From Saxibacter everestensis (GTDB lineage Bacteria; Actinomycetota; Actinomycetes; Actinomycetales; Brevibacteriaceae), in the NCBI RefSeq assembly GCF_025787225.1, contig NZ_CP090958.1, forward strand, positions 3,644,550-3,708,549: a stretch of DNA of 64,000 bases. The letters run 5' to 3'. The notes under the pieces are model-generated. The model saw only the letters and a list, made by a program, of their open reading frames with translations. It was not told where the DNA came from and ran no database searches. Below, one piece after another: positions 10,903-28,440 of this stretch. Position 1 is the stretch's first letter; every line of letters starts with the position of its first letter. The position numbers and the translations under genes were made by a program.

Positions 10903-12240
10903 ATGCCGACCCCGCCCAGCCAACGCGATCCGATCGCGCGCTGGGCGTCTCCCGTCATCGGCGGCGTGCTGGGCAGCCGGGCGGCCAGCTACAGCAGGAC
11001 CTGGTTTCAGAGCGCGCAGATCTTCCTGCTGAGCTCGGCGGCCATGTTCGGCATCGGCCTTTTCGTGCAGGCGCCGTGTTACGGCAACGGCTGGGTTGAG
11101 GCGAAGAAGTTCACCCGGGTCTGCTCGACCCCGCTGATTGACCAGTACAAGCTCCTGGTCGCCCCGGTCAGCTCCGAGCAGGTGATCACATCGCCTGCTT
11201 CGGGCACGGCCAGTGGTGCGGCGGCCGGATTCGGTGCTCCTGGTCATGAGTTGCTGTTCCGGGCCCTGGCCACCCTGGTGCCCGATGGCAGCCTGACGGC
11301 GCAGAGCCGGTGGTTCTTCGTCATCGCGATGTTCGTCATCGCGCTGGGACTTGGATTCGCGGTGCTGGCAACCGCTCGGATTCTTGGCGATGACAGGCGC
11401 TGGCAGCTCGCCACGTTCGGGCTCAGCGCCGTTCTGCCGCTCGCCCTGCCGCAGTCCTTCACCATCGTCGCGATCGCGCTATCGCTGTGGGGGCTGATCT
11501 TCTGGCTGGGCGCGACCCGGCGCGGACGCAGCCCGATGCTTGGCGGACTATTGATCGGACTGGCAGCCCTGTTTTCACCCTTGGCGATGCTTTTCGCCTT
11601 GGCAATAGTCATCCACAGCGCGAAACAATGGTCTAAACGCGGCGGACAGGCACTAATGCTCGCTGGTTCCGCGACAGTCGTACTCGCAATTGGCTTCCTG
11701 CTGACGCCGGATCGTTTCCAGCGACTGTCCGGCATGCTGGACGACCCGGTCGGGCCGGGCTCGCTGGTCTGGACACTCATTCCGTTGCACATCTCGGCGT
11801 TGCCGAATATCGGGCTGGTACTTGCCGGAATCGGCATCGCGGCGACCCTGGTCCTGACCACGGCGCTCGCACTGGCAAGCCATCGGCAGTGGGGAATCGC
11901 GCCGATCTTGTTGCTGCTGTTCGCCGGTACGTTCCTGGTGCTTCCGTCGCTGCCGCCACAGCTGTCCTTATGGTTCGTTCCGCTGGCCTGCATCGCCGTG
12001 CGGGACTGGCGGTTGCACCTGCCGTGGATGCTCATCGAGGTCTTCTTCGTGATCTGCCTCTCGCTCTACCAGCACGGCGACGTCGTGGAGAACAAGGGCG
12101 GCCCGCTGTGGGCAGTCGCAGTGTTCATTGTGCTGAGGCTGGCGGCGATCACCGCCATCGCCGGCTTCGCGCTCAGCGAGCAGCTGTCCCGCGAGATTCG
12201 CCATCCGCGCACTCCAGCAGGATCTCGAGGCTTCGGGTAG
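10903..12240 (+). CDS. Polytopic membrane protein, GT87-like (Rv0051 type)
   Basis: A protein of 445 residues with about ten hydrophobic segments. The region GLFVQAPCYGNGW and FTRVCSTPLIDQY after the first membrane segment resembles the proteins encoded directly after ponA in actinobacteria, which are placed in or near the GT87 polyprenol-phosphate mannosyltransferase group. Those enzymes add mannose to lipid or cell-wall carriers outside the membrane. An acidic donor motif typical of GT-C enzymes is not obvious, so enzymatic activity is an inference from position and layout. The last 68 bases overlap the convergent kinase gene at 12173. No strong ribosome site is seen ahead of 10903. Confidence 0.7.
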   Translation: MPTPPSQRDPIARWASPVIGGVLGSRAASYSRTWFQSAQIFLLSSAAMFGIGLFVQAPCYGNGWVEAKKFTRVCSTPLIDQYKLLVAPVSSEQVITSPASGTASGAAAGFGAPGHELLFRALATLVPDGSLTAQSRWFFVIAMFVIALGLGFAVLATARILGDDRRWQLATFGLSAVLPLALPQSFTIVAIALSLWGLIFWLGATRRGRSPMLGGLLIGLAALFSPLAMLFALAIVIHSAKQWSKRGGQALMLAGSATVVLAIGFLLTPDRFQRLSGMLDDPVGPGSLVWTLIPLHISALPNIGLVLAGIGIAATLVLTTALALASHRQWGIAPILLLLFAGTFLVLPSLPPQLSLWFVPLACIAVRDWRLHLPWMLIEVFFVICLSLYQHGDVVENKGGPLWAVAVFIVLRLAAITAIAGFALSEQLSREIRHPRTPAGSRGFG

Positions 12241-13441
12241 TCTTCATTGCCACCTCTTCGCCGGCATCCGTGCGGCTGATTCCATCCGCCGAACCGGAGA
12301 CCAGAAGCTCCCTCGCCGCGCGCAGAACGCCCCGTGCTGCGACCTCCCGCCGGCGCTCGTCAAGCGTCTCGATGTCGGCCACTTTGGCGAAGCCAACGAT
12401 ACGGCGGATAGCCTTAGCCCCGGCGAAGACGGCGGCATCCGTGCGTACCCGGTCGAGAAACTGCCGGAGCGTATCGTGTGACCACACCCGCGGATCCACC
12501 CGATCCGGCCACAGCGAGCTGAACTCATCCTCGAAGGCGTCCATCAGGTCCACGGGCAGCTGGGTCAGCCGGGCAGCCCGGTCTGAATCGCCAAGGGCGG
12601 CTGCCCGGGCGGCGGCGATCAGCAGATTCGCCCAGAGTGCGCCAAGATCAAAGCCGGTCGGACCATAGGCACCGAATTCGCTGTCGAAAGCGCGCACGGA
12701 CGCCGGCTTGCCGTCGCAGGCGCGCACGAAGACCGATCCGGTATGCAGGTCGCCGTGCAGCAGCGATTCGGCCCGGGTCATGAACGCGAGCTTCGCCTCA
12801 CCGATCGCCCGGATGGCCAGAGTGTCTGCCCGTAATGCGGCGACGTCCGGGGCATTGCCGGGCAGCACGCTGTTGTGCGGATGCTCGATGAAGGGTTCGG
12901 TGAACACCAGATCTTCGGTGATCTGGCTGAGCTCGGGGTTTATGCCCTGAGCAATTTGTTTCTTGTGTTCCGCAGTATCCAGGCCGAAAACAGAGCTGCC
13001 GAAGGCGGTACGCGCGACGTAGCGCCCGATCTCGGTCGCGGCTTGGGGATGAATGCGACCCTCGTTCAATTCGGCCCGCCAGACGGCGTGATCCGAGAGA
13101 TCCTCAAGCGCCAGTACATAGTTGGCATGGTCGAAATGCAGCAGTGCCGGCACGTGTTCGGCGTCCAGACGCTGGTGCACCGAAAGCACCCGCGCCTCAC
13201 GCGCTGACCGCTCGCGAGTCATCTCCCAACTGGGGTCGGTGCGCACGTGCGGCAGTGACTGCTTGAGCACGAGCGAACTGCCAGCGCTATCCCGCACGAT
13301 GAACACCAGGTTCAGGTTGCCGTCACCGACCTCGTCGATTGACGTCAGTGCTTCGGGATCGATCCTGCAAGCCAGCTCGGGCACGACCCGCAAGTAGTCG
13401 GCAACCGTTTCAGTGCTGAGCTGCCTTGGTGCGCTCATCAT
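12173..13441 (-). CDS. mtnK: Methylthioribose kinase-like protein (MtnK paralogue 1)
   Basis: A protein of 422 residues, the usual MtnK length. It shows the APH/choline-kinase fold text: GDGNLNLVFIV glycine loop, VLKQSLP (ATP lysine), the family marker LEDLSDHAVWR, the catalytic loop LLHGDLHTGSVFV and RAFDSEFGAYGPTGFDLG for the metal. MtnK phosphorylates 5-methylthioribose at C1. Two ATG codons adjoin; GGAAGGAA lies just before the first, so the second (13438) may be used. It is divergent from the acireductone dioxygenase gene, and a second, diverged copy lies in the operon at 23845. Its exact substrate may differ from that of copy 2. Confidence 0.85.
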   Translation of the reverse strand: MMSAPRQLSTETVADYLRVVPELACRIDPEALTSIDEVGDGNLNLVFIVRDSAGSSLVLKQSLPHVRTDPSWEMTRERSAREARVLSVHQRLDAEHVPALLHFDHANYVLALEDLSDHAVWRAELNEGRIHPQAATEIGRYVARTAFGSSVFGLDTAEHKKQIAQGINPELSQITEDLVFTEPFIEHPHNSVLPGNAPDVAALRADTLAIRAIGEAKLAFMTRAESLLHGDLHTGSVFVRACDGKPASVRAFDSEFGAYGPTGFDLGALWANLLIAAARAAALGDSDRAARLTQLPVDLMDAFEDEFSSLWPDRVDPRVWSHDTLRQFLDRVRTDAAVFAGAKAIRRIVGFAKVADIETLDERRREVAARGVLRAARELLVSGSADGISRTDAGEEVAMKTTRSLEILLECADGESRGTAAR

Positions 13442-13654
13442 TTCCTTCCCGGTGGCTCGTGAGGCAATAGCGGCCTAACCCTAAGCCGACGAACCAGCAC
13501 GGCGTGAGTTCATGACGAATTGTTACTTCGCAAGGCCCTGAAATCCGCGTGACTTCGCGGCCAGCGCGTAAACCAACGACCAATTTCGGGCAGGAACTTC
13601 CGTAGGTGATGCACAATGAGGCAGATCCAATCCGACCTAGAGGAAGACCGCACC

Positions 13655-14227
13655 GTGACCTTGTTGACAGTTTGGCCCGACTCCGACCCGGGCACGACAG
13701 TGCTGCGCACAACCGATGCGGCCGAGATCACGGCCCACCTGGCCAGCCTCGGCGCACGTTTCTCACGCTGGGAACTCAAGGAACTGAGCGCCGACCCGAG
13801 CCAGGAGGAAGTTCTCGCTGCGTACCAAGCCGAGATCGACGCCGTTAACGCGAACGAGGGTTACACGCTCGTCGACGTGCTCAAGCTGCAGTCCGAGGGA
13901 AATCCTGAATACGAAGAGCAGGCTGCCGCGGCGCGGACCAAGTTCCTGGACGAGCACCAGCACGACGACGACGAGGATCGGTTCTTCGCCCGGGGCTCCG
14001 GCATCTTCTACCTTCGGGGCAATGGCACTGTCAGCGCGGTGTTCTGTGAGGCCGGCGACCTGATTTCCGTCCCGGCAAACACCACGCACTGGTTCGATAT
14101 GGGCACCCGGCCGGAATACATCTCGGTGCGTTTCTTCCACGAGGAAGAGGGCTGGGTAGGCCACTTCACCGGCAGCGGCATCGCGAAGAACTTTCCGACC
14201 TACGACGAAATCGCCGCGCTCCGCTAA
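13655..14227 (+). CDS. mtnD: Acireductone dioxygenase
   Basis: A cupin of 190 residues from GTG 13655, preceded by AGAGGAAG; an ATG 39 bases upstream is possible but has a poorer context. The metal ligands of the acireductone dioxygenase family are visible: His101, His103 and Glu107 in EHQHDDDEDRF and His145 in TTHWFDMG. With Fe(II) the enzyme converts acireductone and O2 to 2-keto-4-methylthiobutyrate and formate in methionine salvage; with Ni(II) it gives the off-pathway product with CO. It is separated from mtnABC by about 7 kb, but belongs to the same pathway. A 93-base repeat follows the stop. Confidence 0.92.
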   Translation: MTLLTVWPDSDPGTTVLRTTDAAEITAHLASLGARFSRWELKELSADPSQEEVLAAYQAEIDAVNANEGYTLVDVLKLQSEGNPEYEEQAAAARTKFLDEHQHDDDEDRFFARGSGIFYLRGNGTVSAVFCEAGDLISVPANTTHWFDMGTRPEYISVRFFHEEEGWVGHFTGSGIAKNFPTYDEIAALR

Positions 14228-15057: not shown

Positions 15058-15185
15058 GTTCCGGGCCTCGCCATGGCGGCCTGATGCAGGCAGCTTGCCG
15101 CAGGACACGCTGACGCTAGGACAGCTTGATGTGTTGCTGGGATCTGTGCTCGTGCCCAGGCCGGGTCAATTAGGCGGTTCGTGTG

Positions 15186-15660: not shown

Positions 15661-16887
15661 CTAGCTATAGGCGCTCGGCGTCGGGTAGACGCCGGTCAGC
15701 TCGTAGATGCCGACCTCCTGCGCCTTATAGGCCACCGGGTCGTGCAATGTGATCGTCCGGGCGTTCCGCCAGAACCTGTCGAACTGCGCGCTTCGGGCCG
15801 TTGCCCGTGCTCCGGTCAGCTCGAAAGCCTTGGATGTCGCCTCCAGCACTGCGCGGGTGGACGACACCTTCGCCGCGGCAATCTCAATTGCCGCCTCACC
15901 TCGAGCGTCGTCGCTCAACTCCCAGCCCGTCTCCATCGCGGCAATCAGCCGTTCGGTTGCCCGCCAGGTCAGCGCATCCGCGGCGCGCACCTGGGAAACG
16001 AGCTCACCGTGGGTCGTCCGGATGTAGGGATCCTCGGTTGCCAGGTCCACCCCAGACGTCGCCCATGGCCGGGTCTTGGTTCGGGTGTATTCAGCGGCGG
16101 ACTCCAGGGCGCCTTCCGCGATCGCCACGTGCAGGTGGCACAGCACTGCCTGGAATAAGAGGATCGATAGCGAACCGCGCGGGCTCTGCGGGTCGCCGGT
16201 CTGCTCATTGCTGCCGAGCACGCACTCCGGAGCCACGATGGCGTTGTCGAAGATCACCGATCCGGATGCGGAAAGTCGTTGACCGATGTTGTCCCAGTCG
16301 CCCGGATGGCTGACGCCGGACCCCCTGCCGTCGATGACGATCGCCAGCTTCTCGCCGGTGTCGGCTCGGGTTCCGCTGGCGGTAATCCGGTCGGCCACCT
16401 CGGCTCCGGTGGCGAAGAATTTGCGACCGGAGACCAAAAAGTTTCGACCGTCCGGCATCAGGGTGAGCCCGGCGTCACGTGGGTTGCCGGCTCCACCCCA
16501 GAACAGCTGCCGGGCAGCTGTTTCCTGCTCGAGCGCCGCGATCGAATCGGCATTCCGATTCAGGTTGATCCGCCAGGAGTTCACGTAGTGGTAAGCGAGC
16601 GCGTGGCCTACCGATGCATCGACCCGCAAGATCGGGCGGATGGCGGTCAGCAGCTCGCGCCATCCGAGCCCGATGCCACCGCGTTCGGCAGGAATCAGGG
16701 CCGGAAGAATGCCGGCATCGCGAAACAACTCCACCTCGGCATGCGGGGCGAGTCCGGCCAGCTCGCGGGATTCGACATCCGCTGCCAGCACGGCGGCGAG
16801 CCCTGCGCACGCCGCCGTGAAGTCGGCAGGGGAGGCGGGATGTTTCGGCTGCTGAGACGGCTCTGGCGCCTGAAGATGCTTGGACAC
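15661..16887 (-). CDS. Acyl-CoA dehydrogenase-fold flavoprotein (SfnB/DszC-like)
   Basis: A protein of 408 residues from GTG 16887 (VSKHLQAPEP); an ATG at 16935 is the alternative and the ribosome site is weak for both. The sequence has the acyl-CoA dehydrogenase fold: FRDAGILPALIPAERGGIGLGW, the beta-sheet domain with FATGAEVADRI, and a C-terminal helical domain ending in RFWRNARTITLHDPV. That ending is typical of the SfnB/DszC group of FMN-dependent monooxygenases and dehydrogenases that act on organosulfur compounds, and not of fatty-acid dehydrogenases. It is divergent from the nucleoside importer, which fits a sulfur-salvage setting. The substrate is unknown. Confidence 0.75.
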   Translation of the reverse strand: MSKHLQAPEPSQQPKHPASPADFTAACAGLAAVLAADVESRELAGLAPHAEVELFRDAGILPALIPAERGGIGLGWRELLTAIRPILRVDASVGHALAYHYVNSWRINLNRNADSIAALEQETAARQLFWGGAGNPRDAGLTLMPDGRNFLVSGRKFFATGAEVADRITASGTRADTGEKLAIVIDGRGSGVSHPGDWDNIGQRLSASGSVIFDNAIVAPECVLGSNEQTGDPQSPRGSLSILLFQAVLCHLHVAIAEGALESAAEYTRTKTRPWATSGVDLATEDPYIRTTHGELVSQVRAADALTWRATERLIAAMETGWELSDDARGEAAIEIAAAKVSSTRAVLEATSKAFELTGARATARSAQFDRFWRNARTITLHDPVAYKAQEVGIYELTGVYPTPSAYS

Positions 16888-17070
16888 AGCCAAATTGTGC
16901 CTAATCCTGGGAAGAAAATGGCAATTGCGTCTCACGATAGGGACAAATGTTTCAGTATGTGACGCTGCTGAGGTTCTCCGGCTGATGGATACCAGACGAT
17001 TATTGTGCCCAAAACCTTTCTCGGAGCGCGATAACTTCGCAGTGCGCTTCTCAAGTCTCGCTGAAGGAAA

Positions 17071-18105
17071 ATGATGTTTTCAACCCGCGCTGCGCTCGTT
17101 ACGGCGGTAGCCGCCCTGGCGCTCGTCACCTCCGGCTGCAGCAGTTCATCCGAGACAGCTGGCGAAGCCAAAGAGAAGTCGATCGTCCTGATCACCCCGA
17201 CAGCCATCGGTTCCAACAACTTTCTCCAGCTGGCCAAGACCGGAGCGGAAGCTGCCGGCAAGGCCAACAACGCCGACGTGAAGGTTTACGAAAGCAAAGA
17301 CCCGGCTAGCGTCCAGCAGAACATCGACGCGGCAGTCCGGGCCAAGGCAGACATCGTGATCGGCGTCAGCTTCAGCGTCCAGGACCAGTTCGATACCTCA
17401 GCGCAGGACAGCCCAGACCAGCAATTCCTCCTGGTGGACGCCTGCCCGGAGAAGCCGGCCGAGAACCTGACCTGCGCAAGTTTCAAGGAGTACGAATCCA
17501 ATTACCTCGCCGGCGTGGAGGCTGGCCTGCTGACAAAGGCTGACAAGGTCGGCGCGGTTGCCTCGGTCGACACCCCGTTCGTGAACCGCTGGGTGACGCC
17601 GTTCCTCGATGGCGCCAAGAGCGTTAACAAGGACGTGAAATCTTCCGTACAGTACGTCGGCGGCGACAACCCGTTCGGCGATCAGGCCCGCGCCAAGGCC
17701 CAGGCCCAGGTCGTTGCCGACAGCGGAGCCGACTACCTCAACGCCGCCGCATCCGGCGGAAACTACGGCATCTTCGAGGCGGCAGAGGCAAATAAGGTCA
17801 AGGCCTTTGGCGTCGACACAAACCAGTGCCTCGATTCCCCCGGAAACGTCGTGGACAACTCCATCAAGCGGGTGGATGTCGCCCTGGAGAACTCGGTCAA
17901 GGACATCCTCGCCGGTAAGTCCGGTGACGTGAAGGTTTACGGCCTTGCAGAGAACGGCGTCGGGCTGACCGGCCTGGAAGAGGGCGTAGCGGATTCGAAG
18001 TGCCTTATCGCAGATCACCCGGACGTTATCGAGAAGGTGAAGCAGGTTCGCGATGACATTATTGCGGGGAAGATCACTGTGAAAGACCCTGTTACAGCCG
18101 GATGA
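17071..18105 (+). CDS. BMP-family nucleoside-binding lipoprotein of an ABC importer
   Basis: A protein of 344 residues with a lipoprotein signal peptide (ALALVTSGC, cleavage before Cys24 or so). The mature part is the BMP/PnrA basic membrane protein domain: KSIVLITPTAIGSNNFLQL, then ADIVIGVSFSVQDQF, VGAVASVDTPFVNRW and AFGVDTNQC, which in relatives bind purine nucleosides. GAAGGA precedes the two adjacent ATG codons. Its stop overlaps the next ATG by 4 bases, so it opens the importer and salvage operon that runs to about 27.1 kb. The ligand is predicted to be a nucleoside, perhaps a methylthio-nucleoside from context. Confidence 0.9.
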   Translation: MMFSTRAALVTAVAALALVTSGCSSSSETAGEAKEKSIVLITPTAIGSNNFLQLAKTGAEAAGKANNADVKVYESKDPASVQQNIDAAVRAKADIVIGVSFSVQDQFDTSAQDSPDQQFLLVDACPEKPAENLTCASFKEYESNYLAGVEAGLLTKADKVGAVASVDTPFVNRWVTPFLDGAKSVNKDVKSSVQYVGGDNPFGDQARAKAQAQVVADSGADYLNAAASGGNYGIFEAAEANKVKAFGVDTNQCLDSPGNVVDNSIKRVDVALENSVKDILAGKSGDVKVYGLAENGVGLTGLEEGVADSKCLIADHPDVIEKVKQVRDDIIAGKITVKDPVTAG

Positions 18106-19634
18106 CCCACCCAGCAGTTGAGCTTGCGGGGATCAGCAAGGCCTTCGGGCCGGTCATCGCAAACCAGAACGTCGACCTGACCCTCCGACGGGGATCCATC
18201 CATGCCCTGATGGGCGAGAACGGGGCCGGCAAGTCAACCCTGATGTCGATTCTGTACGGGATTCATCGTCCCGACAGCGGGCAGATCCTACGGAATGGCT
18301 CGGCTGTCAGTTTCGATAACCCGCAGCAGGCAATGGCTGTGGGCTTAAGCATGGTGCATCAGCATTTCCGGCTTTTCGACTCGCTGACAGTAGCCGAGAA
18401 CGTGGTGTTCGGCGCGGAACCGCGCCGCTTCGGCCAGCTCGACTCGGCCGCCGCCGAGCGGCGAGTCCGCGAGCTCGCCGACCAGTACGGACTCGCCGTC
18501 GAACCGGCGGCTCGGGTGGGCAGCCTGCCGGTCGGGGTCCGGCAACGCGTCGAGATCCTTAAGGCACTGCACCGGAACAGCGACGTCCTGATCCTTGACG
18601 AGCCGACCGCGTCACTGACTCCTGGCGAGGTGACTTCGCTGTTCGAGGTGATCCGCCGGGCCGCGAACCAGGGCAGCTCGATCGTCCTGGTCACGCACAA
18701 GATCCCCGAAGTGCTCGACGTCAGCGACGAGGTCACAGTGCTGCGCGACGGCAGGGTGTCCGGCCGGTTCCGCACTGCGGATACGTCCGCGGCAGAACTG
18801 GTCGAGGCGATGACCGGGCGAGTCGCCAGCCCTGCGCTGAATCCGGGTGGCGGCGACCGTGGGGAGCGGGTGCTCGAGGTCGCGGACCTCACTGTAAATA
18901 TCGGTGGGCGGCGCAAGGTCGATGCCGCCTCGTTCGCCGTGCATGCAGGTGAAATCGTTGGCATTGCCGGCGTCTCCGGCAACGGTCAGCACGAGCTCGT
19001 CCAGGCCATCCTCGGCACCTTGCCGCGGCGGAGCGTCACGGGCTCGATCAGGCTTTCCGGAAATTCGGTAGCTACCGAGTCGGTGCGCCGCCGCCGCGGG
19101 CTCGGCCTGGCCGTCATCCCCGAAGACCGGCGCGGCGAAGGCAGCGCGGTCGAGCTGAGCGTTGCCGAGAACCTCGCGCTCGGCCACCATCGTCAACCAC
19201 CAATTGCCGGCAAAGGCTTCTTCGGTAAGGGCTGGATGTCGCGCCGCAACCTCGCGCGCCGGGCCGGCCAGCTGATCGCCGACTTCGGGGTGAAGACTCC
19301 ATCGGAGCAGACAACTGTCGGGGCGCTTTCCGGCGGCAACGCGCAGAAAGTCGTCGTTGCGCGGGAGCTCGGACACCAGGCACGGCTACTGATCGCCGAA
19401 CAGCCGACCCAGGGCGTGGATGTGGGCGCAATCGAATCGATTCACCGCCGGCTGATCGACTACCGAAACTCGACCGGCGGCATTCTGCTGGTTTCGCATG
19501 AAATCAGCGAGCTACTCGCGCTTGCCGATCGGATTCTGGTGATGTTCGAAGGAAAGATCGTGGCAGAGTTTCCTCGCGCCGAGGCCACGTTCCATTCCAT
19601 TGGCGGCGCGATGGCGGGTGCGGTCGATGCCTGA
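18102..19634 (+). CDS. Nucleoside ABC importer ATPase (two nucleotide-binding domains)
   Basis: A protein of 510 residues with two fused ABC domains, as in NupA/YufO and simple-sugar importers. Domain 1 has Walker A GENGAGKST and Walker B VLILDEPTA. Domain 2 has a degenerate Walker A region (GVSGNGQHELV) and the signature LSGGNAQKVVVAREL with LLIAEQPTQGVD. The degenerate second site is normal in this family. It energises import by the lipoprotein and the two permeases. It overlaps both neighbours (ATGA upstream, 8 bases downstream), which indicates translational coupling. Confidence 0.92.
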   Translation: MTHPAVELAGISKAFGPVIANQNVDLTLRRGSIHALMGENGAGKSTLMSILYGIHRPDSGQILRNGSAVSFDNPQQAMAVGLSMVHQHFRLFDSLTVAENVVFGAEPRRFGQLDSAAAERRVRELADQYGLAVEPAARVGSLPVGVRQRVEILKALHRNSDVLILDEPTASLTPGEVTSLFEVIRRAANQGSSIVLVTHKIPEVLDVSDEVTVLRDGRVSGRFRTADTSAAELVEAMTGRVASPALNPGGGDRGERVLEVADLTVNIGGRRKVDAASFAVHAGEIVGIAGVSGNGQHELVQAILGTLPRRSVTGSIRLSGNSVATESVRRRRGLGLAVIPEDRRGEGSAVELSVAENLALGHHRQPPIAGKGFFGKGWMSRRNLARRAGQLIADFGVKTPSEQTTVGALSGGNAQKVVVARELGHQARLLIAEQPTQGVDVGAIESIHRRLIDYRNSTGGILLVSHEISELLALADRILVMFEGKIVAEFPRAEATFHSIGGAMAGAVDA

Positions 19635-20739
19635 GCTGAAAGAAACTGACGCTATCGCCGAAGAAGCGTTGCCGTCGAAATCTGTGCTGGGTAGATCCGT
19701 GTTCCGGCAGCTGATTCGGCACCCTAGCCTGGTTCCGCTGGGCGCGGTGCTGTTGGCCGTGCTGATCGGCTCGGTGATCATGCTGTGCGCGGGCATCTCG
19801 CCGTTCGTGGCGTACCCGGCAATGGTTCGCGGCGCGCTGGCGGTGGAGAACCTCGATTACACGATCTCCGTTTTCACGCTGATCTGCGGCATGGCCCTCG
19901 CATTCGCCCTGCCATTGCGGATGGGTGAATACAATCTCGGCGGCAACGGCCAGCTGGTGTTCGGCGGCATCACTGCGGCGGCGATCGGCCTCTACGCTCC
20001 TTTGCCGGCCTGGCTGGTCATCCCGATCGCCCTGCTGGCGGGCGCCGTCGCGGGTGGCCTGCTGGCAGCGGTGGCGGGTCCGCTCAGCAGTAAGCTCGGC
20101 ATCCCGATCATCATCACGACCCTGCTGCTCTCCACGCCGGCCGTGGCGCTGACCTCCTATCTGGTGCGCTTTCAGATCGGTGAGGCTGGCTCCGGCCAGG
20201 CGCAGACCGCCCGGCTTCCGGAAGCCGCGCGACTGCCTGGGATCGGCGATCTCGGCTACACCAACATCGGCCTGATCCTGATCATCGTGCTGCTGGTGGC
20301 ATTCTGGCTTTTCGACAGTCGCAGCGCGCTTGGATATGAGCTGCGGGTGCTCGGCAGCAACGCCCGGTTCGGCGCCTACGGCGGCATAGGCGTCTCGCGG
20401 CTGGCCACCGGCTCGCTGGCAGTCGCCGGAGCGGTGGCGGGGCTCGTCGGGGCAATGATCGTTGCCGCCCCGCCGTACCGCTTCATCGATGGCGCGCTCA
20501 TCTCGCCCGGATACACCTTCGCCGGGGTGGCTGCGGCGCTGCTCGCGGCCGGGCGGCCGGCTCTGCTGCCGCTGACCGCCGCGGTTTTCACCATCCTGCA
20601 GGTTGGTGGCAGCGGGATGGAGCGAGAGGCCGATGTGCCCAGGCAGCTGTCGGATGTCCTGCAAGCCGTCGTCGTCACGGTGTTGGCGCTGCGCACAGTC
20701 GTCGAGGCGCGCCGTGCCCGGATGCGGAGAGATGTCTGA
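19627..20739 (+). CDS. Nucleoside ABC importer permease 1
   Basis: A protein of 370 residues from ATG 19627, overlapping the end of the ATPase gene. It has about eight to ten hydrophobic segments and the BPD_transp_2 family text: MRMGEYNLGGNGQLVFGGITAAAIGL, LSSKLGIPIIITTLLLS and ALGYELRVLGSNARFGAYGGI. In this family the two permeases form a heterodimer with the BMP-type binding protein and fused ATPase. The last codon overlaps the start of permease 2 by one base. Confidence 0.9.
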   Translation: MPELKETDAIAEEALPSKSVLGRSVFRQLIRHPSLVPLGAVLLAVLIGSVIMLCAGISPFVAYPAMVRGALAVENLDYTISVFTLICGMALAFALPLRMGEYNLGGNGQLVFGGITAAAIGLYAPLPAWLVIPIALLAGAVAGGLLAAVAGPLSSKLGIPIIITTLLLSTPAVALTSYLVRFQIGEAGSGQAQTARLPEAARLPGIGDLGYTNIGLILIIVLLVAFWLFDSRSALGYELRVLGSNARFGAYGGIGVSRLATGSLAVAGAVAGLVGAMIVAAPPYRFIDGALISPGYTFAGVAAALLAAGRPALLPLTAAVFTILQVGGSGMEREADVPRQLSDVLQAVVVTVLALRTVVEARRARMRRDV

Positions 20740-21707
20740 TGGACCTGTTCAACTGGGCTTTCGTTGCCGCCGTTCTGCTCGCCACCGCGCCGGTGCTGTA
20801 CGCCGCGCTCGGCGGCGCGCTGTGTGCGCAGGCGGGAGTGTTCAACATCGCGCTCGAAGGCCAGATGCTGTGGGGTGCCTTCGCTGCGGTGGCCGGAAGC
20901 TACTACACCGGGAGTGCCTGGCTTGGTGTATTGATCGCGGTGCTGTCCACCGCGTTGTTCGCCGTCGTGCTGGCGGTGGGCTCGGCGCGCTGGAAGGCGG
21001 ATCCGATCGTGATCGCGATCGGCACCAACCTGTTTGCGCTGGGTGTGACCGGCTTCCTTATCCGCGTGTTGTTCGACGTCAACGGCTCCTTCGCCCCACA
21101 GGGCCTTGCCGGCCTGGGCACCTTGACATTCCTGGCCGACGTGCCAATCCTCGGCGAGGTATTTGGCCGCAACTCAGCTCTGGTACCCCTTGCCCTGCTG
21201 ACCGCCGTCGCTGTCGCCTGGTGGCTTGGCCGGACGCCTGCCGGCCTGCGGCTGCGCGGGGTAGGGGAGCACCCGGAAGCGGTTGCCGCCCTAGGCTTAA
21301 GCGTCGAGCGCTATCGGATCGCGGCAATTATCGCCGCGGGGGCCCTGTGCGGCCTCGCCGGCGCTCAGCTGTCGCTGGGAAATGTCAGTCTGTTCACCGA
21401 GAACATGACGGCCGGCCGCGGCTGGATCGCCGTCGCCGCCGTGATGATCGCGGTCAACCGGCCACTTCGAGTCGCCGTGGCCTGCCTGGGCTTCGGCGCT
21501 GCGGAGGCGTTCGGCTTTCGCCTGCAGGGCATCGGCGCCCCGCAGCAGCTCGCCGATGCCGCCCCGTATGTGATTACCCTCATCGTTCTGGTGATGGCAC
21601 GTGGCCGAACAGCGATGTTTCCCGCAAGGGTCGCGGCAGAAAAGACCCCGGCAGACAAAGACCCGGCAGAAAAGGCTTCGGCAGAAAAGGTGGACACACA
21701 ACGATGA
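20739..21707 (+). CDS. Nucleoside ABC importer permease 2
   Basis: A protein of 322 residues with about eight membrane segments and family text ALGGALCAQAGVFNIALEGQMLWGA and AGALCGLAGAQLSLG. It is the second half of the permease dimer. The last 25 residues are an odd soluble tail with AEK/ADK repeats (KTPADKDPAEKASAEK), encoded by near-tandem 15-base units; a similar low-complexity expansion occurs in the next genes. The stop overlaps the mtnA ATG by 4 bases. Confidence 0.9.
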   Translation: MDLFNWAFVAAVLLATAPVLYAALGGALCAQAGVFNIALEGQMLWGAFAAVAGSYYTGSAWLGVLIAVLSTALFAVVLAVGSARWKADPIVIAIGTNLFALGVTGFLIRVLFDVNGSFAPQGLAGLGTLTFLADVPILGEVFGRNSALVPLALLTAVAVAWWLGRTPAGLRLRGVGEHPEAVAALGLSVERYRIAAIIAAGALCGLAGAQLSLGNVSLFTENMTAGRGWIAVAAVMIAVNRPLRVAVACLGFGAAEAFGFRLQGIGAPQQLADAAPYVITLIVLVMARGRTAMFPARVAAEKTPADKDPAEKASAEKVDTQR

Positions 21708-22849
21708 ACGCGCCGGAACCAACGGCCACCCTTGACCAGTCGATTCGGCTGCGCGGGAACACAGTTCAGATCCTCGATCGCCGGGTATTCCCCGAGCAGT
21801 TGCACTGGGTCGATTGCGCAAATCCCGCCGAGGTCGCCGCCGCCATCCGCGACATGGTCACCCAGAGTTCGGGCCCGCTGTACGCCGCCTACGCGGGGAT
21901 GGCGCTCGCCGCCCGGCAGGCAGCCGACCTTCCGCTGGATGACGCCCGGTCACGCCTGGTCGAGGCCGGGGAGCTGCTGGCGAACGCCCGGCCGACCAAT
22001 AACCATCCCAAGGAGGCCGTGCGTTTCGTCCTCGACAGCCTCGACGGTGCAACGACGACGGCGGAGCTGGTCGCGCTCGCCGAACGCGCGTGCCGACTCG
22101 GCGACGAGCGCTATCGTGCCCGCAGCAGGGCGCTGGCGGAGGCCGCGGTCGACCTGATCCCGGACGGCTCGAGAATCCTGACGCACTGCTGGATGGACTC
22201 CTACCTGATCGAGCTGGTCAAGGCGGCAGCCCGCGCCGGACGACGCTACAGCTGGGTCGCCACCGAGACCCGTCCCTACCTGCAGGGTGCCCGGCTCACC
22301 TCGCACACACTGCGTGAAATGGGCGAACAGGTCACCCTGATCACTGACGGAATGGGGGCCGCCGCGCTCGCCGCCGGACGCGCTGAGCGCGAGCGGCAGT
22401 CGAATCCCGGAGCCGACGGCGGTGACACGCGGAATCCCGAGACCGACGGTGCGCGGCAACCTGAGCCCGACGGCGCGCGGCAACCCGAAACCGGCATCGG
22501 CCGGATCGATGCCCTCGTCACCGCCGCCGACCGGGTCAGCATGGATGGGCATGTCGTCAACAAGGTCGGCACGCTTGGCCTGGCCGTGGCGGCGAAGGCC
22601 TTCGGTGTCCCCTACTACGCGCTCGTCCAGTCGCCGGATCGGGGCGCGCCCACCGGTGCGGACATCGTGATTGAGCAACGCGACCACTCAGAGGTACTCG
22701 AAGTGCTTGGCCGGCGGACGGCATCCGTCCTGGTCACCGACGCCTGGTACCCGGCATTCGATGCCACGCCCCCCGAATTCGTCACCAGTGTCGTCACCGA
22801 TCGCGGAGCATTCGATGCCACCGCGCTCGCCGACTACTACCGCAGCTAG
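21704..22849 (+). CDS. mtnA: Methylthioribose-1-phosphate isomerase-like protein (eIF2B/MtnA family)
   Basis: A protein of 381 residues from ATG 21704. The C-terminal Rossmann-type domain has ILTHC (Cys162, the conserved MtnA cysteine), AADRV (Asp276, the catalytic Asp) and KVGTLGLAVAAKAFGVPYY. MtnA isomerises methylthioribose-1-phosphate to methylthioribulose-1-phosphate. Oddities: the usual NAG after the cysteine is replaced by WMD, and about 30 extra residues at 225-260 consist of repeats like DGARQPEP. The family also contains ribose-1,5-bisphosphate isomerases, so the sugar specificity rests on the mtnK, mtnC and mtnB genes next door. It is coupled to permease 2. Confidence 0.82.
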   Translation: MNAPEPTATLDQSIRLRGNTVQILDRRVFPEQLHWVDCANPAEVAAAIRDMVTQSSGPLYAAYAGMALAARQAADLPLDDARSRLVEAGELLANARPTNNHPKEAVRFVLDSLDGATTTAELVALAERACRLGDERYRARSRALAEAAVDLIPDGSRILTHCWMDSYLIELVKAAARAGRRYSWVATETRPYLQGARLTSHTLREMGEQVTLITDGMGAAALAAGRAERERQSNPGADGGDTRNPETDGARQPEPDGARQPETGIGRIDALVTAADRVSMDGHVVNKVGTLGLAVAAKAFGVPYYALVQSPDRGAPTGADIVIEQRDHSEVLEVLGRRTASVLVTDAWYPAFDATPPEFVTSVVTDRGAFDATALADYYRS

Positions 22850-22858
22850 GAGACTCAC

Positions 22859-23848
22859 ATGACCAGCACCGAAGGTGCCACCACTCACCACATCATCGTC
22901 GATACAGACACCGGCATCGACGATGCTCTCGCGCTGCTGTACCTGCTGGGAAAGCGGAACGTCGAGGTCTCGGCGATCACGAGCGTGTACGGAAACACCC
23001 CGGTCGAGGACGCGGTGACAAACATCGGCCACGTGCTCGATGTCGCCGGCCGGCCGGACATTCCGGTTGCTGTCGGCGCGGCCGGCCCGATTGGCGGTGA
23101 GGCCCGGATCGCCGGCTACGTGCACGGCAAGGATGGCCTCGGCGACGTCATCGCAGACCGGGTGCCGCCGCGGAATGTTGTCTCGCAGAGCTCGGCGGAA
23201 CTCCTCGTCGAAATGGCCCGCAGCCGACCCGGCTACTACGACCTGCTGCCGGTCGGCCCGCTGACCAACCTCGGGCTGGCACTTGAGCTCGAGCCGAACC
23301 TGCTGTCCCTGTTCAAGTCCGTCGTCGTGATGGGCGGATCCGGTCCATTCCCGCCGCTGGGCGTAGCCCAGATGGTCGATGCAAACATCCACAACGACGC
23401 CGAGGCGGCCCGCCGGGTCTTCGCCGCGCCGCGCGAGCGACTGGTGATGGTCGGCGTCAACGTCACCGCTGGCACCATCGTCGACGAGCATGCCGTCGCC
23501 GCCCTGCATAAGTCGGGGACGCGCACCGGTGAATTCACCGGGCAGATCCTCGAGGCCTACATGGATTTCTACCAGCACGCTTGGGGCCGCCGGGTCTCGC
23601 CGGCGCACGATGGCCTGGCGGCCGGCCTGCTGCTGCACCCGGAATGGATCCGGGAATCCCGGCTCGGCCCGGTCAACATCACCAGCGACGGCTTCGCAAT
23701 CCGGGCGCACCTGATGGAAACCTATGACGGCCTCCCGGTCACTTGGCCGGTGGAGTCCGCACCCGACACGGTCGTGGTGACGGATGTCGACCGGCGAGCC
23801 TTTCTCGCTGACTTCGTTGGCACCATCGTTCACGGAGAGCGTCGGTGA
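22859..23848 (+). CDS. Inosine-uridine-type nucleoside hydrolase
   Basis: A protein of 329 residues, the family length. The calcium-binding N-terminal motif is DTDTGIDDALAL and the C-terminal catalytic region is SPAHDGLAAGLLLHP. Nucleoside hydrolases split the N-glycosidic bond with water, giving free base and ribose. Here the gene lies between mtnA and mtnK in a nucleoside-import operon without mtnN or mtnP, so I infer that it releases methylthioribose from imported methylthioadenosine or methylthioinosine. Preceded by AGGAG; the stop overlaps the GTG of the kinase. A simple purine-ribonucleoside role cannot be excluded. Confidence 0.9.
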   Translation: MTSTEGATTHHIIVDTDTGIDDALALLYLLGKRNVEVSAITSVYGNTPVEDAVTNIGHVLDVAGRPDIPVAVGAAGPIGGEARIAGYVHGKDGLGDVIADRVPPRNVVSQSSAELLVEMARSRPGYYDLLPVGPLTNLGLALELEPNLLSLFKSVVVMGGSGPFPPLGVAQMVDANIHNDAEAARRVFAAPRERLVMVGVNVTAGTIVDEHAVAALHKSGTRTGEFTGQILEAYMDFYQHAWGRRVSPAHDGLAAGLLLHPEWIRESRLGPVNITSDGFAIRAHLMETYDGLPVTWPVESAPDTVVVTDVDRRAFLADFVGTIVHGERR

Positions 23849-25242
23849 CCGACCAGCCGGTAGCCGCTGACAGTCCCCGTGATTCTGCCGTTGCTGAAAC
23901 GCCGGCCGCAGATAGTCCAACCGCCGAAGCCCCGGCCGCGGACTACGCGCTGCTGGGCGACGCCGATGACGTGATCGGCTACCTCCGGGAGCATGATCTG
24001 CTGCACCTGCTAGCGGGACCCTCGGGCGAAAACGGCGCCGAGCCGGCGGACGGAAACGCCGAGCCGGTGGATGCCGGCATCGTCGTGCACGAGGTGACCG
24101 CAGGGAACATGAACCGGGTTTTCATCGCCCGCCGTGGCGGACGGGGAGTCGCCGTCAAACAGGCTCCGCCCTGGGTGCAGGTGGCCGGGCCGGACTGGCC
24201 GGCCGACCCTTCCCGGTCGGCGGCCGAGGCTCGGGCTTACGACTACCTCGCCAGGCTGACGCCGGAAGCCGTGCCGACCATCCACTACTTCGACCAGGAC
24301 CAGCACGTTCTGGTGATGGAGGATCTTTCGGATCTTGAGGTGCTCCGTGACTTCTTCGTCGCCGAGGTGGCTTCGAGCGGCCCAGGCGGTTCTCCGGCTC
24401 TGGGCGGTACCGGAATCGACATCGCCGCTGTCGGCGAGGTCGTCGGCCGATTCATCGGAGAACTCAGCTTCGCCACCAGCGATATCGGCATGGGTAGCGC
24501 CGACCGGAAGGCCCTGATAGCGGCGGCGGTGAATCCGGACCTGTGCCGGATGACGGAAGACGTGCTGCTCGACGAGCCCTATCGTGAGCACGAGCACAAC
24601 AAGATCCCGGCCGGCTTCGAAGCAGACGCCCGGGCGCTTTATGCGAACACCGAGTTGCGCCGTGAGTTGTCGGTTCTGCGCCATCGCTTCATGTCGTGCG
24701 CGCAGGCGTTGCTGCACGGAGACCTGCACTCCGGCTCGGTGATGGTTGGACGACGGGATTTGGCGCAGGTCACCACTGTCTTCGACCCCGAGTTCAGCTT
24801 TGTCGGCCCGATCGGCTTCGACCTCGGGCTGTTCTGGTCCAACCTGTCGATAGCCGCCGATGCTGCCCGGGCGGTTGGCCTGGATTCTCTGGCCTGGCAG
24901 CGGGATGCCGCTATCGGCACATCCTGGGGCGCTTTCGTCTCGGCGTGGCGAAAGCACTGGTCGGAGCGAGCGGATACCGTTTTCAGCGATGATTACCTTG
25001 AAGTCTTGTTAGCAGAGGTGTTTTCGGATGCGGTCGGGTACGCCGGGATTGAATCGGTGCGCCGGGTCGTTGGGTATTCACACGCGGCTGATCTGGAATC
25101 ATTGCCGGATTGGGCGCGTGCCGGAGCCCAGCGGGTGGTGCTGAATCGCGCCGTCCGCTGGATCACCGGCCGGCATGACTACGCCTCACCCGCCGAACTG
25201 ACTGGTGCCGTTCTTTCCCCGGCCGGTACCACGACCGAATGA
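23845..25242 (+). CDS. mtnK: Methylthioribose kinase-like protein (MtnK paralogue 2)
   Basis: A protein of 465 residues from GTG 23845, overlapping the hydrolase stop. The kinase core shows VTAGNMNRVFIA (glycine loop), VAVKQAPP (ATP lysine), MEDLSDLEVLRDFF, the catalytic loop LLHGDLHSGSVMV and FDPEFSFVGPIGFDLG. It should phosphorylate methylthioribose at C1. About 40 residues at the N-terminus are Ala/Pro/Asp repeats not found in other MtnK proteins. With the copy at 12173 the window encodes two distinct kinases of this family; this one is the operon member. Confidence 0.88.
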   Translation: MTDQPVAADSPRDSAVAETPAADSPTAEAPAADYALLGDADDVIGYLREHDLLHLLAGPSGENGAEPADGNAEPVDAGIVVHEVTAGNMNRVFIARRGGRGVAVKQAPPWVQVAGPDWPADPSRSAAEARAYDYLARLTPEAVPTIHYFDQDQHVLVMEDLSDLEVLRDFFVAEVASSGPGGSPALGGTGIDIAAVGEVVGRFIGELSFATSDIGMGSADRKALIAAAVNPDLCRMTEDVLLDEPYREHEHNKIPAGFEADARALYANTELRRELSVLRHRFMSCAQALLHGDLHSGSVMVGRRDLAQVTTVFDPEFSFVGPIGFDLGLFWSNLSIAADAARAVGLDSLAWQRDAAIGTSWGAFVSAWRKHWSERADTVFSDDYLEVLLAEVFSDAVGYAGIESVRRVVGYSHAADLESLPDWARAGAQRVVLNRAVRWITGRHDYASPAELTGAVLSPAGTTTE

Positions 25243-25255
25243 AAGCAGGAACCAA

Positions 25256-25990
25256 GTGACGTCATCCACTCCCACGCCGGTAGCTCTCGCCGCGCGCACC
25301 GTCGTACTCGACCTGGAGGGCACCACAAGCGCAGCCGGGTTCATTCTGGGCGATCTTTACGATTACGCCCGCCCCCGGCTGCTGCCATGGCTGCAGGAGC
25401 ATGCGGACGACGAGGAAGTGGCGGATGCCCGCGCGCAGGCCATCACGGACGCCGAGCTGCCGCCCGATGCGAGCGATGAGGACATTGTGGCTGCGCTGCT
25501 CGCGTGGATGGACTCGGATGTGAAGGCCACCCCGCTGAAGACGCTTCAGGGTCAGATCTGGGCCGAGGGCTTCGAGCGGCACGAGATTACCTCGCAGTTC
25601 TTCGATGACGTGATTCCTAAGCTGCACGCCTGGCATGCCTCGGGAGTGCGCCTTGCGGTGTTTTCATCCGGCTCGGTGACCTCGCAGCGTCCATGGTTCA
25701 AATATTCGCCGGAGGGTGACCTGTCCGGGTTGATCACCGACTACTTCGACACCGTCAAGGCGGGGCCGAAGAAGGCCGCGGAGTCTTACCGCACCATTGC
25801 CAGGGCTCTGGGTGACGAGCCGGGACAGCTGGTGTTTTTCTCCGATCACCCGGAGGAAATCGCCGCCGCGTCGCACGCCGGCTGGCAGGTGCTGGCTTTC
25901 TCCCGCGAGGGCGAGCCCTGGTTCGGTGCCGATTTCGGGGATGCTCCGGTGGTCGGCAGCTTCGCTGACGTCGAAGTCAGTCGGCTGTGA
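25256..25990 (+). CDS. mtnC: Enolase-phosphatase E1 (2,3-diketomethythiopentyl-1-phosphate enolase/phosphatase)
   Basis: A protein of 244 residues from GTG 25256 with AAGCAGGA upstream; a longer frame overlaps mtnK and is unlikely. HAD-superfamily motifs: VVLDLEGTT (catalytic Asp), VFSSGSVTSQ and the Lys in TVKAGPKKAAESY, then VFFSDHPEEIAAA. MtnC enolises and dephosphorylates the MtnB product to give acireductone, the MtnD substrate. It is coupled to mtnB by a GTGA overlap. Together with MtnD it shows that this cluster is true methionine salvage and not only a 5-deoxyribose shunt. Confidence 0.93.
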   Translation: MTSSTPTPVALAARTVVLDLEGTTSAAGFILGDLYDYARPRLLPWLQEHADDEEVADARAQAITDAELPPDASDEDIVAALLAWMDSDVKATPLKTLQGQIWAEGFERHEITSQFFDDVIPKLHAWHASGVRLAVFSSGSVTSQRPWFKYSPEGDLSGLITDYFDTVKAGPKKAAESYRTIARALGDEPGQLVFFSDHPEEIAAASHAGWQVLAFSREGEPWFGADFGDAPVVGSFADVEVSRL

Positions 25991-26661
25991 CCGCTCCGGA
26001 ACGGGCGACCCTGGAAGCTGCCGGGCGCGCACTCGCCGCTGAATCGGCTCGGTTCGCCGGTATGGGCTGGATGCGCGGAACCTCCGGCAACCTTTCGGTC
26101 ACCCTGACCCGGAATCCGTTGCGGCTCGCCGTCACTGCATCCGGTCTGGACAAGAATGAACTGACGGGGGCCGACATTGTGGTCATCGACCGCTTGGGTG
26201 AGCCGGTCGACATCCCGCAGGCGCCAGGTCAGCCGGCGCTGCTTCGTGCCGGGCTACGGCCGTCGGCCGAGGCCGGCCTGCACGCCCGTATCGCGGAGGT
26301 TACCGGCGCGGGCGCGGTCGTGCACGTTCATCAGTTGTCGGCGGTTCTCGCCGGGCACTACTTTCCGGATGGCGTGCCGATTCGCGACATGGAAATGCTC
26401 AAGGGCATCGGGCACAGCGCGCATGACCAGACCGTCACTGTGCCGGTGGTGCCGAACGATCAGGACATGACCGTGCTCGGTGACGCTTTCGAGCAAGCCT
26501 ATGTTCCTGCCACCGATGACGTTGCCGAAGTTCCCGTTCTGATCGTGGCCAACCATGGCATTTACGCCTGGGGCGCCGACCTGTTGCAGGCCCGGCAGCA
26601 CGCGGAGATCATCGAATGGCTGCTTCGCTTCAAGGTGGAGACGCGGGAGCCAGCAAGATGA
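25987..26661 (+). CDS. mtnB: Methylthioribulose-1-phosphate dehydratase
   Basis: A protein of 224 residues of the class II aldolase/adducin family. GTSGNLSV and TASGLDKNEL bind the phosphate end; the zinc ligands are in AVVHVHQLSAV (HVH) and VANHGIYAWG. MtnB dehydrates methylthioribulose-1-phosphate to the diketo compound used by MtnC. Related aldolases cleave 5-deoxyribulose-1-phosphate, but gene order mtnK, mtnC, mtnB supports dehydratase. GTG start overlaps the mtnC stop, and the stop overlaps the following ATG. Confidence 0.92.
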   Translation: MTAPERATLEAAGRALAAESARFAGMGWMRGTSGNLSVTLTRNPLRLAVTASGLDKNELTGADIVVIDRLGEPVDIPQAPGQPALLRAGLRPSAEAGLHARIAEVTGAGAVVHVHQLSAVLAGHYFPDGVPIRDMEMLKGIGHSAHDQTVTVPVVPNDQDMTVLGDAFEQAYVPATDDVAEVPVLIVANHGIYAWGADLLQARQHAEIIEWLLRFKVETREPAR

Positions 26662-27125
26662 CAGATCTGGCCGGCAGGTTGAGAGCGGAGGCGGCAGCCG
26701 AGGAACGCGGTGTCTCGGTCCAATTCGTGGAACGTCCCGCGGCCGACAGCCTGGAGGAAGCCGCGGCGATCCTGGGCATTCCGCCGCGTGGCATCGTCAA
26801 AACGCTCGTGGTGCGGCGCCGCGGCGGTTACCTGTTCGCCCTGATTCCAGGGGATCGGCAGATCTCGTGGCCGAAGCTGCGTGCCGTGGTCGGCGTGAAC
26901 AAGCTGACGATGCCGCCCGCCGAGGAGGCACTCGAGGCGACGGGTTATCAGCGGGGCACGATTACGCCGTTCGGCAGCTCGACCGAATGGCCGGTGTATG
27001 CCGATGAGCGGATTCGGGGTGAACGGATCGCGATGGGCGCGGGTGCTCACGGTTACAGTCTCTTCGTCGACGCGGACGGATTGATCGACTCGTTCTCGGC
27101 CGAGGTCGCCGATATCAGCGATTAG
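26658..27125 (+). CDS. YbaK/ProX-type aminoacyl-tRNA deacylase domain protein
   Basis: A protein of 155 residues with the YbaK fold: AAAILGIPPRGIVKTLVVR, the core Lys of the K-T-L motif, PGDRQISWPKL and GYQRGTITPFGSS. YbaK proteins hydrolyse mischarged Cys-tRNAPro or related aminoacyl-tRNAs in the cytoplasm. It ends the salvage operon by ATGA coupling to mtnB. A link to sulfur amino acids is attractive (removal of mischarged Cys, homocysteine or methylthio analogues) but is an inference. Confidence 0.88.
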   Translation: MTDLAGRLRAEAAAEERGVSVQFVERPAADSLEEAAAILGIPPRGIVKTLVVRRRGGYLFALIPGDRQISWPKLRAVVGVNKLTMPPAEEALEATGYQRGTITPFGSSTEWPVYADERIRGERIAMGAGAHGYSLFVDADGLIDSFSAEVADISD

Positions 27126-27219: not shown

Positions 27220-28440
27220 ATGAGCGTCTATATCAGGTCGATCGAGACAGCCGTACCCACGACAGTTCTGCAGCAGGATCAGACCCGCGACGCCTTTGCC
27301 GCGCAGCCTGGCCTCGGCCGGTTGGGACAGCGGCTCATCCATTCAACCTTCAGCGCTTCCGGTATCGAGCGGCGGTACAGCGTTATCGACGACTTCGACT
27401 TCGAGCAGGATCGTGATCTCCGCGCCGAGCCGGTCTTCTTCGATCGCGACACCGCGCAGATGCTCAACCCCGGCACCGCCATCCGCAATCGGGTGTACAC
27501 CAGCCGGGCCGCGGAGCTGTTCGTCGAAGCAGGCAAGCGAGCTCTGAAGGCCTGCGACGGCATCGACGCCGCCGATGTCACGCATGTCGTCACGGTGTCC
27601 TGCACCGGATTCTTCGCCCCCGGGCCGGACTTCATGCTGGTGCGCGAGCTCGGTCTCGCCCCGACGGTGAGCCGGCAGCATCTGGGGTTCATGGGTTGCT
27701 ATGCCTCGCTGCCTGCGCTGCGCGTGGCGGCGGATTTCTGCCGCGCCGACCCGGATGCCGTCGTCCTCGTGGTCAGCACCGAGCTGTGCACCCTGCACGT
27801 CCGGGTTTCCAATGATCCGGACACTATCGTCGCTTCATCTGTTTTTGCCGATGGCGCCGGAGCCGCCGTCGTCACCGCGAAACCGCCCGGGCAGGACACT
27901 GCCGCCCTGCGTATCGACAGGTTCGGCACCGTGATCACGCCGGTCGGCGAGGGCGATATGGCGTGGACGATCGGCGATCACGGCTTCGAAATGGTCTTGA
28001 GCAAGTACGTGCCGCACATCATAGATGAGCACATTCTCGGCGCCCTGGAGCCGCTGCTGGCCGAGGAGCCTGAGCTGGCACGTTCACCGAAGGAGAGCGT
28101 GCGGCACTGGGCCATTCATCCGGGCGGCCGCAGCATCCTGGACAAGGTGGAGGCCAAGCTCGGGCTCAGCGAGGCGCAGTTGATACCGTCGCGCGACACA
28201 CTGCGCGATTACGGCAACATGAGCAGCGCCACCATCCTCTTCGTGCTCAAACACATACTTGACGGGCGGCGCGAGGCGAGCTTGGGCGCGATCCTTCCGG
28301 GCGAGACGGGTCCAGGCGAGACGCTGGCGGACGAGAGCGTTCCGGACCGGGACGAGCGAGTGGCCGCGATGGCGTTCGGGCCGGGACTCACCGTGGAAAC
28401 CGCCCTGCTGACCCGGCTCCCCGCTGTAGCGACCGGCTGA
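27220..28440 (+). CDS. Type III polyketide synthase (chalcone/stilbene synthase-like)
   Basis: A protein of 406 residues. The catalytic triad of type III PKSs is visible: Cys160 in GFMGCYASLPALR, His300 in HWAIHPGGRSIL and Asn333 in DYGNMSSATILFVL. The enzyme condenses a starter acyl-CoA with malonyl-CoA and cyclises to resorcinols, pyrones or similar. It stands first in a trio with a methyltransferase and a flavin hydroxylase (overlapping or adjacent), the same kind of set as SrsA-SrsB-SrsC in Streptomyces griseus, which makes methylated alkylresorcinol and quinone phenolic lipids. The product here is unknown. Confidence 0.92.
   Translation: MSVYIRSIETAVPTTVLQQDQTRDAFAAQPGLGRLGQRLIHSTFSASGIERRYSVIDDFDFEQDRDLRAEPVFFDRDTAQMLNPGTAIRNRVYTSRAAELFVEAGKRALKACDGIDAADVTHVVTVSCTGFFAPGPDFMLVRELGLAPTVSRQHLGFMGCYASLPALRVAADFCRADPDAVVLVVSTELCTLHVRVSNDPDTIVASSVFADGAGAAVVTAKPPGQDTAALRIDRFGTVITPVGEGDMAWTIGDHGFEMVLSKYVPHIIDEHILGALEPLLAEEPELARSPKESVRHWAIHPGGRSILDKVEAKLGLSEAQLIPSRDTLRDYGNMSSATILFVLKHILDGRREASLGAILPGETGPGETLADESVPDRDERVAAMAFGPGLTVETALLTRLPAVATG

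Follow-up and report, generated by a model that had tools for sequence, protein, structure and literature searches.

A nucleoside hydrolase in a methionine salvage operon of Saxibacter everestensis as a candidate enzyme for cleaving 5'-methylthioadenosine

How is methionine salvage opened in a bacterium that encodes neither 5'-methylthioadenosine (MTA)/S-adenosylhomocysteine nucleosidase (MtnN) nor MTA phosphorylase (MtnP)? The question is raised by an operon in a stretch of 64,000 nucleotides of the Saxibacter everestensis genome (contig NZ_CP090958.1, positions 3,644,550 to 3,708,549), here called the window, whose own numbering we use. At 17071-27125 on the plus strand, the operon encodes a BMP-type ABC importer, MtnA, a nucleoside hydrolase (NH), MtnK, MtnC, MtnB and a YbaK-type protein. 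Our conclusion is that the physiological substrate of the NH is probably MTA or a closely related analogue modified at the 5' position. This assignment draws on the recurrence of the operon in relatives, the co-occurrence of the NH with MtnK, the loss of the residues that bind the substrate 5'-hydroxyl (5'-OH), and the SAM-IV riboswitch that heads the operon in Geodermatophilaceae.

The genome is a single contig of 4.05 Mb, 98.2% complete, and families were assigned with NCBIfam and Pfam profiles at their curated cut-offs. No protein in the whole genome matches the MtnN model, and MtnP is likewise absent genome-wide: the sole PF01048 (PNP_UDP_1) protein is a standard PunA (TIGR01698, 335 bits; cut-off 303), which reaches only 71 bits with the MTAP model (cut-off 275). 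The preliminary description of this DNA had reported both enzymes missing from the window and proposed a genome search for their genes; with neither found, the absence extends to the genome. Nor is either present in four Geodermatophilaceae. The NH is thus the only candidate for cleaving MTA in S. everestensis and the Geodermatophilaceae, where it would be a non-orthologous replacement of MtnN and MtnP. No SpeD-family (spermidine-type) S-adenosylmethionine (SAM) decarboxylase was found in the S. everestensis genome. Spermidine synthesis is therefore an unexpected source of MTA here, which favours scavenging of external MTA; MTA may still arise within the cell from other sources.

The active site of the operon hydrolase

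Recognition of the 5'-OH is central to the characterised NHs. In an inhibitor complex of Escherichia coli RihA, Asn158 and Glu164 hydrogen-bond O5' (PMC2898832); the Crithidia enzyme does not accept 5'-deoxyinosine, and in the Trypanosoma vivax enzyme the 5'-OH contributes 5.4 kcal/mol (PMC12648331). Strict ribose specificity has been described in a review as common to all characterised NH isozymes (PMC8910321).

Positions in the window NH were taken from a HMMER alignment to 1ezr. The two RihA ligands correspond to what we take to be Asn160 and Glu166 of 1ezr, and at these positions the window NH has Gly168 and Asp174. The same pair is found in 87/87 members of the clade to which the window NH belongs, whereas Asn and Glu are kept in 30 of the 31 other NHs compared and in all three further NHs of the S. 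everestensis genome. Given that characterised NHs need the 5'-OH, loss of its ligands implies that another 5' group is bound. Clade-specific alignment positions are few (96, 162, 168, 174, 200 and 242, plus an inserted Pro163), and the chance that six of ∼320 positions would include both O5' ligands is ∼3e-4, a rough figure that treats all positions as equal.

In other respects the enzyme resembles the group I NHs (RihA, CfNH/IU-NH, plant NRH). Its AlphaFold2 model (pLDDT 94, pTM 0.92) finds these enzymes as its best Foldseek matches, with a TM-score of ∼0.8-0.9 to 6zk1, 3g5i and 2mas, and the calcium-binding Asp residues and the His250/Asp251 pair are common to both. The calcium-binding and catalytic residues D15, D17, D21, D22, N46, N176 and D251 are present in 87/87 clade members and H250 in 81/87; in the other six, which include Kineococcus loci L042 and L043, Trp replaces His250. 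Besides Gly168/Asp174, the window NH differs from group I enzymes in a Gly-Pro at 162-163 with a loop insertion, in Trp242, and in standing among methionine salvage genes.

The single exception among the 31 other NHs flanks a different mtnA-mtnK locus, L053, in a genome of the same order (G215). Among the genes of this locus (1810-15560) are an NH, an aldo-keto reductase, a RuBisCO-like protein, mtnA, mtnK, a sugar ABC importer, a second NH with Asp at the Glu166 position, an O-acetylhomoserine sulfhydrylase-like gene and a cupin; it looks like isoprenoid-shunt-type salvage. We considered L053, with two NHs around mtnA, mtnK and the RuBisCO-like gene, as a second replacement and rejected it, since the PF01048 protein of G215 reads as MtnN, judged by its sequence and not by a family model.

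Recurrence of the locus and its link to MtnK and SAM

A survey of gene neighbourhoods across genomes, proposed in the preliminary description, was carried out by scanning 84,980 genomes for the NH clade, with gene content called at a 40% identity threshold. It gave 80 named loci: 30 with importer, NH and mtn genes, one with NH and mtnA, 10 with importer and NH, and 39 with the NH and neither. The full arrangement thus occurs in at least three other families, namely Streptosporangiaceae (Nonomuraea, Herbidospora, Acrocarpospora, Microbispora, Planotetraspora, Streptosporangium, Sphaerisporangium and Thermocatellispora), Geodermatophilaceae (Blastococcus and Trujillonella) and Microbacteriaceae (Cryobacterium). 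On a quick tree of NHs the clade is a single branch with full support, and at least six gains or losses of mtn context are required. Importer and NH are paired without adjacent mtn genes in Agreia, Herbiconiux and Kineococcus (G048), and a distant pair outside the clade occurs in Rhizobiales (L147, L148). Two oddities were seen in the survey. A 13E12/HNH-type gene, judged by sequence, lies between mtnK1 and mtnA of a Blastococcus operon (L087, 12263-13477) and is probably an insertion; and a metagenome-assembled genome labelled Acidiferrobacteraceae (L082) carries a clade NH at 59% identity, by transfer or contamination.

MtnK is rare in the phylum. It was found in 2/396 genomes of a phylum sample, one of them S. 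everestensis, and in 5/297 genomes of the order; a phylum-wide search from MtnK for further NH-mtn pairs added just one genome. Among clade genomes without adjacent mtn genes, MtnK is encoded elsewhere in 22/42 (leaving out the two Rhizobiales, which fall outside the clade), against 1/395 in the phylum sample. Fisher's test gives p ∼2e-24 by genome and 1e-11 by genus (8/12 against 1/236, a genus counting as positive once MtnK was present in at least one tested member), values that ignore relatedness within genera. Microbacteriaceae loci with the importer and no mtn genes usually have MtnK elsewhere in the genome.

All four Geodermatophilaceae loci (L087-L090) have a SAM-IV riboswitch upstream of the BMP gene, at 60-87 bits (gathering threshold 38). 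Importer and NH are therefore predicted to be SAM-responsive together with the mtn genes, which couples the entire operon to the methionine/SAM state of the cell in this family. No SAM riboswitch was detected in seven Streptosporangiales loci or in the Microbacteriaceae loci searched. In Kineococcus, a SAM (S-box) riboswitch (L043, 14330-14423) is found ∼170 nt from the importer gene, but it is encoded on the other strand and its neighbour looks like a decayed aldo-keto reductase gene; we do not count it as support. No upstream operator common to all families was found, a shared word being present only within Streptosporangiaceae. This word, around GGTAGGAAAT and continuing with ATATGCT, precedes the BMP gene in L091, L096, L110 and others and may be an operator or promoter.

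Operon layout and the proposed route

The genes of the operon and its near neighbours are as follows.

12173..13441, minus strand: MtnK2, a second S-methyl-5-thioribose kinase (TIGR01767, 347 bits; cut-off 275), divergent from mtnD
13616..14227, plus strand: MtnD, acireductone dioxygenase (PF03079, 91.5 bits, over cut-off)
15661..16935, minus strand: DszC/SfnB-like flavin oxidoreductase (NF043015, 237 bits, and TIGR04022, 234 bits, both below cut-off), divergent from the operon
17071..18105, plus strand: BMP/PnrA-family substrate-binding lipoprotein (relatives in the Protein Data Bank: Lbp, BmpD and TmpC/PnrA lipoproteins)
18102..19634, plus strand: importer ATPase (double ABC), overlapping the preceding gene by 4 nt
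19627..20739 (start refined), plus strand: importer permease 1 (NF047929, 124 bits, below cut-off)
20739..21707, plus strand: importer permease 2 (NF047928, 150 bits, below cut-off)
21704..22849 (start refined), plus strand: MtnA, methylthioribose-1-phosphate isomerase, THCW variant (E 1e-51 to 5e-73, below curated cut-offs)
22859..23848, plus strand: NH of the G168/D174 clade (PF01156, 219 bits; cut-off 34), proposed MTA (5'-alkylthio nucleoside) N-ribohydrolase
23845..25242, plus strand: MtnK1, S-methyl-5-thioribose kinase (TIGR01767, 317-319 bits; cut-off 275)
25256..25990, plus strand: MtnC, enolase-phosphatase (TIGR01691, 192 bits; cut-off 128); start 25256 probable, longest open reading frame from 25205
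25987..26661, plus strand: MtnB, methylthioribulose-1-phosphate dehydratase (TIGR03328, 161 bits; cut-off 137)
26658..27125 (start probable), plus strand: YbaK-type aminoacyl-tRNA editing domain protein (PF04073, over cut-off; TIGR00011, 83 bits, cut-off 153)

All ten operon genes run head to tail, with junctions of -4, -8, -1, -4, +9, -4, +13, -4 and -4 nt. The preliminary description had listed these genes correctly as one unbroken, coupled run, had placed the NH exactly between mtnA and mtnK and had put mtnD nearby (at 13655), all of which agrees with the coordinates above; it had missed MtnK2, which outscores MtnK1 on TIGR01767. Lipoprotein, double ATPase and two permeases complete the BMP/PnrA importer architecture. 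The YbaK gene, though coupled to the operon, has no match in any of the 80 related loci; for that reason we reject it as a pathway member, and its place is probably incidental. The genes that follow the operon directly (27220-30322), for a type III polyketide synthase, a methyltransferase and a probable FAD monooxygenase, may form a small cluster for a secondary metabolite.

The operon MtnA, the only PF01008 protein in the genome, is unusual. The canonical THCNTGxLAT loop is replaced by THCWADA or similar, ∼9 residues shorter, with the catalytic Cys and a later Asp kept; the THCW form is shared by all close relatives (L087-L122, L141, L050), and the window copy also carries a low-complexity insert. 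It is this divergence that places MtnA below the curated cut-offs, its homology being clear.

These genes would form a self-contained system for scavenging external MTA or a close 5'-deoxy or 5'-alkylthio nucleoside. The importer would carry the nucleoside inwards, the NH would hydrolyse its N-glycosidic bond to yield adenine and methylthioribose (MTR), and MtnK1 would phosphorylate MTR. The product would pass through MtnA, MtnB, MtnC and MtnD to 2-keto-4-methylthiobutyrate, which an aminotransferase would turn into methionine. Homologues for every step from MTR to the keto acid are present, as had been claimed, and no MtnE was seen in the operon, although no search aimed at it was made. That the hydrolase gene lies next to a kinase gene is as expected, since MtnK would not be needed if MtnP opened the pathway. 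MTA occurs outside cells, its release by Prochlorococcus having been reported (PMC11698098), and external MTA supports growth of E. coli that has the dihydroxyacetone phosphate (DHAP) shunt (PMC10986504). The preliminary description had proposed import of MTA or methylthioinosine and its cleavage by a repurposed NH; the evidence supports the MTA half of this proposal, while nothing specifically favours methylthioinosine.

The extended locus in relatives often holds MtnK2, a ribose-type sugar ABC importer, MtnD and the DszC/SfnB-like oxidoreductase. mtnD is a conserved neighbour in most, and the oxidoreductase gene adjoins it in L087, L089, L090, L106, L110, L113, L121 and L122. The MtnK2 gene adjoins the sugar importer, which stands beside it or other mtn genes at L091 14008-18621, L050 5170-10083 and L141 3-1429 and is plausibly an importer of MTR. 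Judged by gene order, there seem to be two parallel entries, one for the nucleoside (BMP importer, NH, MtnK1) and one for free MTR (sugar ABC importer, MtnK2).

Alternative substrates and comparison with known systems

Could importer and NH simply be an ordinary module for uptake and hydrolysis of inosine, uridine or adenosine, co-transcribed with salvage genes by chance, with ribose passing through side activities of MtnK and MtnA? The importer-NH pairs without adjacent mtn genes, in the clade and in Rhizobiales, speak for this, as do the three other NHs of the genome; and a paper cited in PMC10986504 proposes, to judge by its title, that Bacillus subtilis metabolises ribose by salvage enzymes. 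Ordinary NHs, however, keep both 5'-OH ligands that the clade has lost, Microbacteriaceae with the importer only usually have MtnK elsewhere, and the Geodermatophilaceae riboswitch links the operon to methionine/SAM status. We thus regard an ordinary module as unlikely. Somewhat less likely still is that a different 5'-deoxynucleoside, above all the 5'-deoxyadenosine produced by radical-SAM enzymes, is the true substrate, with 5-deoxyribose handled by MtnK and MtnA. MtnN, MtnK and MtnA do act on both MTA and 5'-deoxyadenosine derivatives (PMC10986504), lost 5'-OH recognition would suit any 5'-deoxy substrate, and without SpeD there is no spermidine-derived MTA within the cell. Yet the conserved MtnC and MtnD belong to the methylthio branch ending in ketomethylthiobutyrate, MtnB passes the dehydratase model TIGR03328, and processing of 5-deoxyribose would involve an aldolase, as in the DHAP shunt, and need neither MtnC nor MtnD. 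We give very little credence to a route in which MTA is deaminated to methylthioinosine and PunA forms methylthioribose-1-phosphate by phosphorolysis, the NH being irrelevant to salvage. PunA is the genome's only PNP_UDP_1 enzyme and its family prefers 6-oxopurines, but it scores only 56 bits on the methylthioinosine phosphorylase model (cut-off 223), two MtnKs would be unnecessary, and an NH between mtnA and mtnK would be left unexplained.

Several observations weigh against a role of the NH in MTA cleavage, or limit it. Asp174 could still bind a 5'-OH; the operon MtnA diverges from the canonical sequence, and its activity is presumptive; and no riboswitch was found in the window, whether at the gathering threshold or with E values allowed up to 1. 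In the unbiased order sample alone, MtnK accompanies the clade NH in 2/11 genomes against 3/286 (p 0.01; p 0.13 without S. everestensis). Kineococcus, Frigoribacterium, and some Subtercola and Microbacterium hold a clade NH and no MtnK, and the NH can thus have a task apart from the complete salvage route, perhaps just the recovery of adenine. Finally, MtnP is over cut-off in 25/25 Streptosporangiales tested, and Cryobacterium has MtnN. The earlier claim that the NH stands in place of MtnN/MtnP therefore holds for S. everestensis and Geodermatophilaceae and fails for these two groups; where Streptosporangiales have kept MtnP, the NH more likely serves an imported nucleoside. The general role of the NH is better described as processing imported MTA, with loss of MtnN/MtnP secondary.

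Compared with MtnN-type methionine salvage in B. subtilis and Klebsiella, the logic is the same (a hydrolase with MtnK, MtnA, MtnB, MtnC and MtnD, and free MTR as intermediate), whereas the window hydrolase belongs to the NH superfamily (PF01156) and not to that of MtnN (PF01048), and the window adds a dedicated BMP-type importer and the THCW MtnA in a cluster without MtnE. Known BMP/PnrA nucleoside importers have the same binding lipoprotein, double ATPase and two permeases; this one is encoded with mtn genes, and its predicted ligand is a methylthio-nucleoside. The DHAP shunt of extraintestinal pathogenic E. coli and Rhodospirillum likewise uses external MTA or 5'-deoxyadenosine via a nucleosidase, MtnK and MtnA, but the window has MtnB, MtnC and MtnD leading to ketomethylthiobutyrate, no Ald2 in the operon, and an NH instead of Pfs/MtnN. 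A 2018 review of methionine salvage (PMC6302742) contains no word beginning 'hydrolase', and no bacterial NH connected with the cleavage of MTA, and none with methionine salvage, was found in full-text literature outside subscription papers. The novelty would thus lie in a different opening enzyme for a known pathway logic.

We lean, with some reserve, towards the broader reading that the clade represents a third, independently evolved class of enzyme opening methionine salvage, a calcium-dependent NH that would have traded 5'-OH recognition for a 5'-methylthio pocket and that moves among several families of actinobacteria as part of a portable operon, together with importer, kinase and variant MtnA. 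If this is true, it would reveal a new activity in a family widely annotated as 'inosine-uridine nucleoside hydrolase', explain methionine salvage in genomes without MtnN or MtnP, and add a third, unrelated way into the pathway. Together with MTA release by Prochlorococcus (PMC11698098), it points to MTA as a sulfur nutrient traded among microbes.

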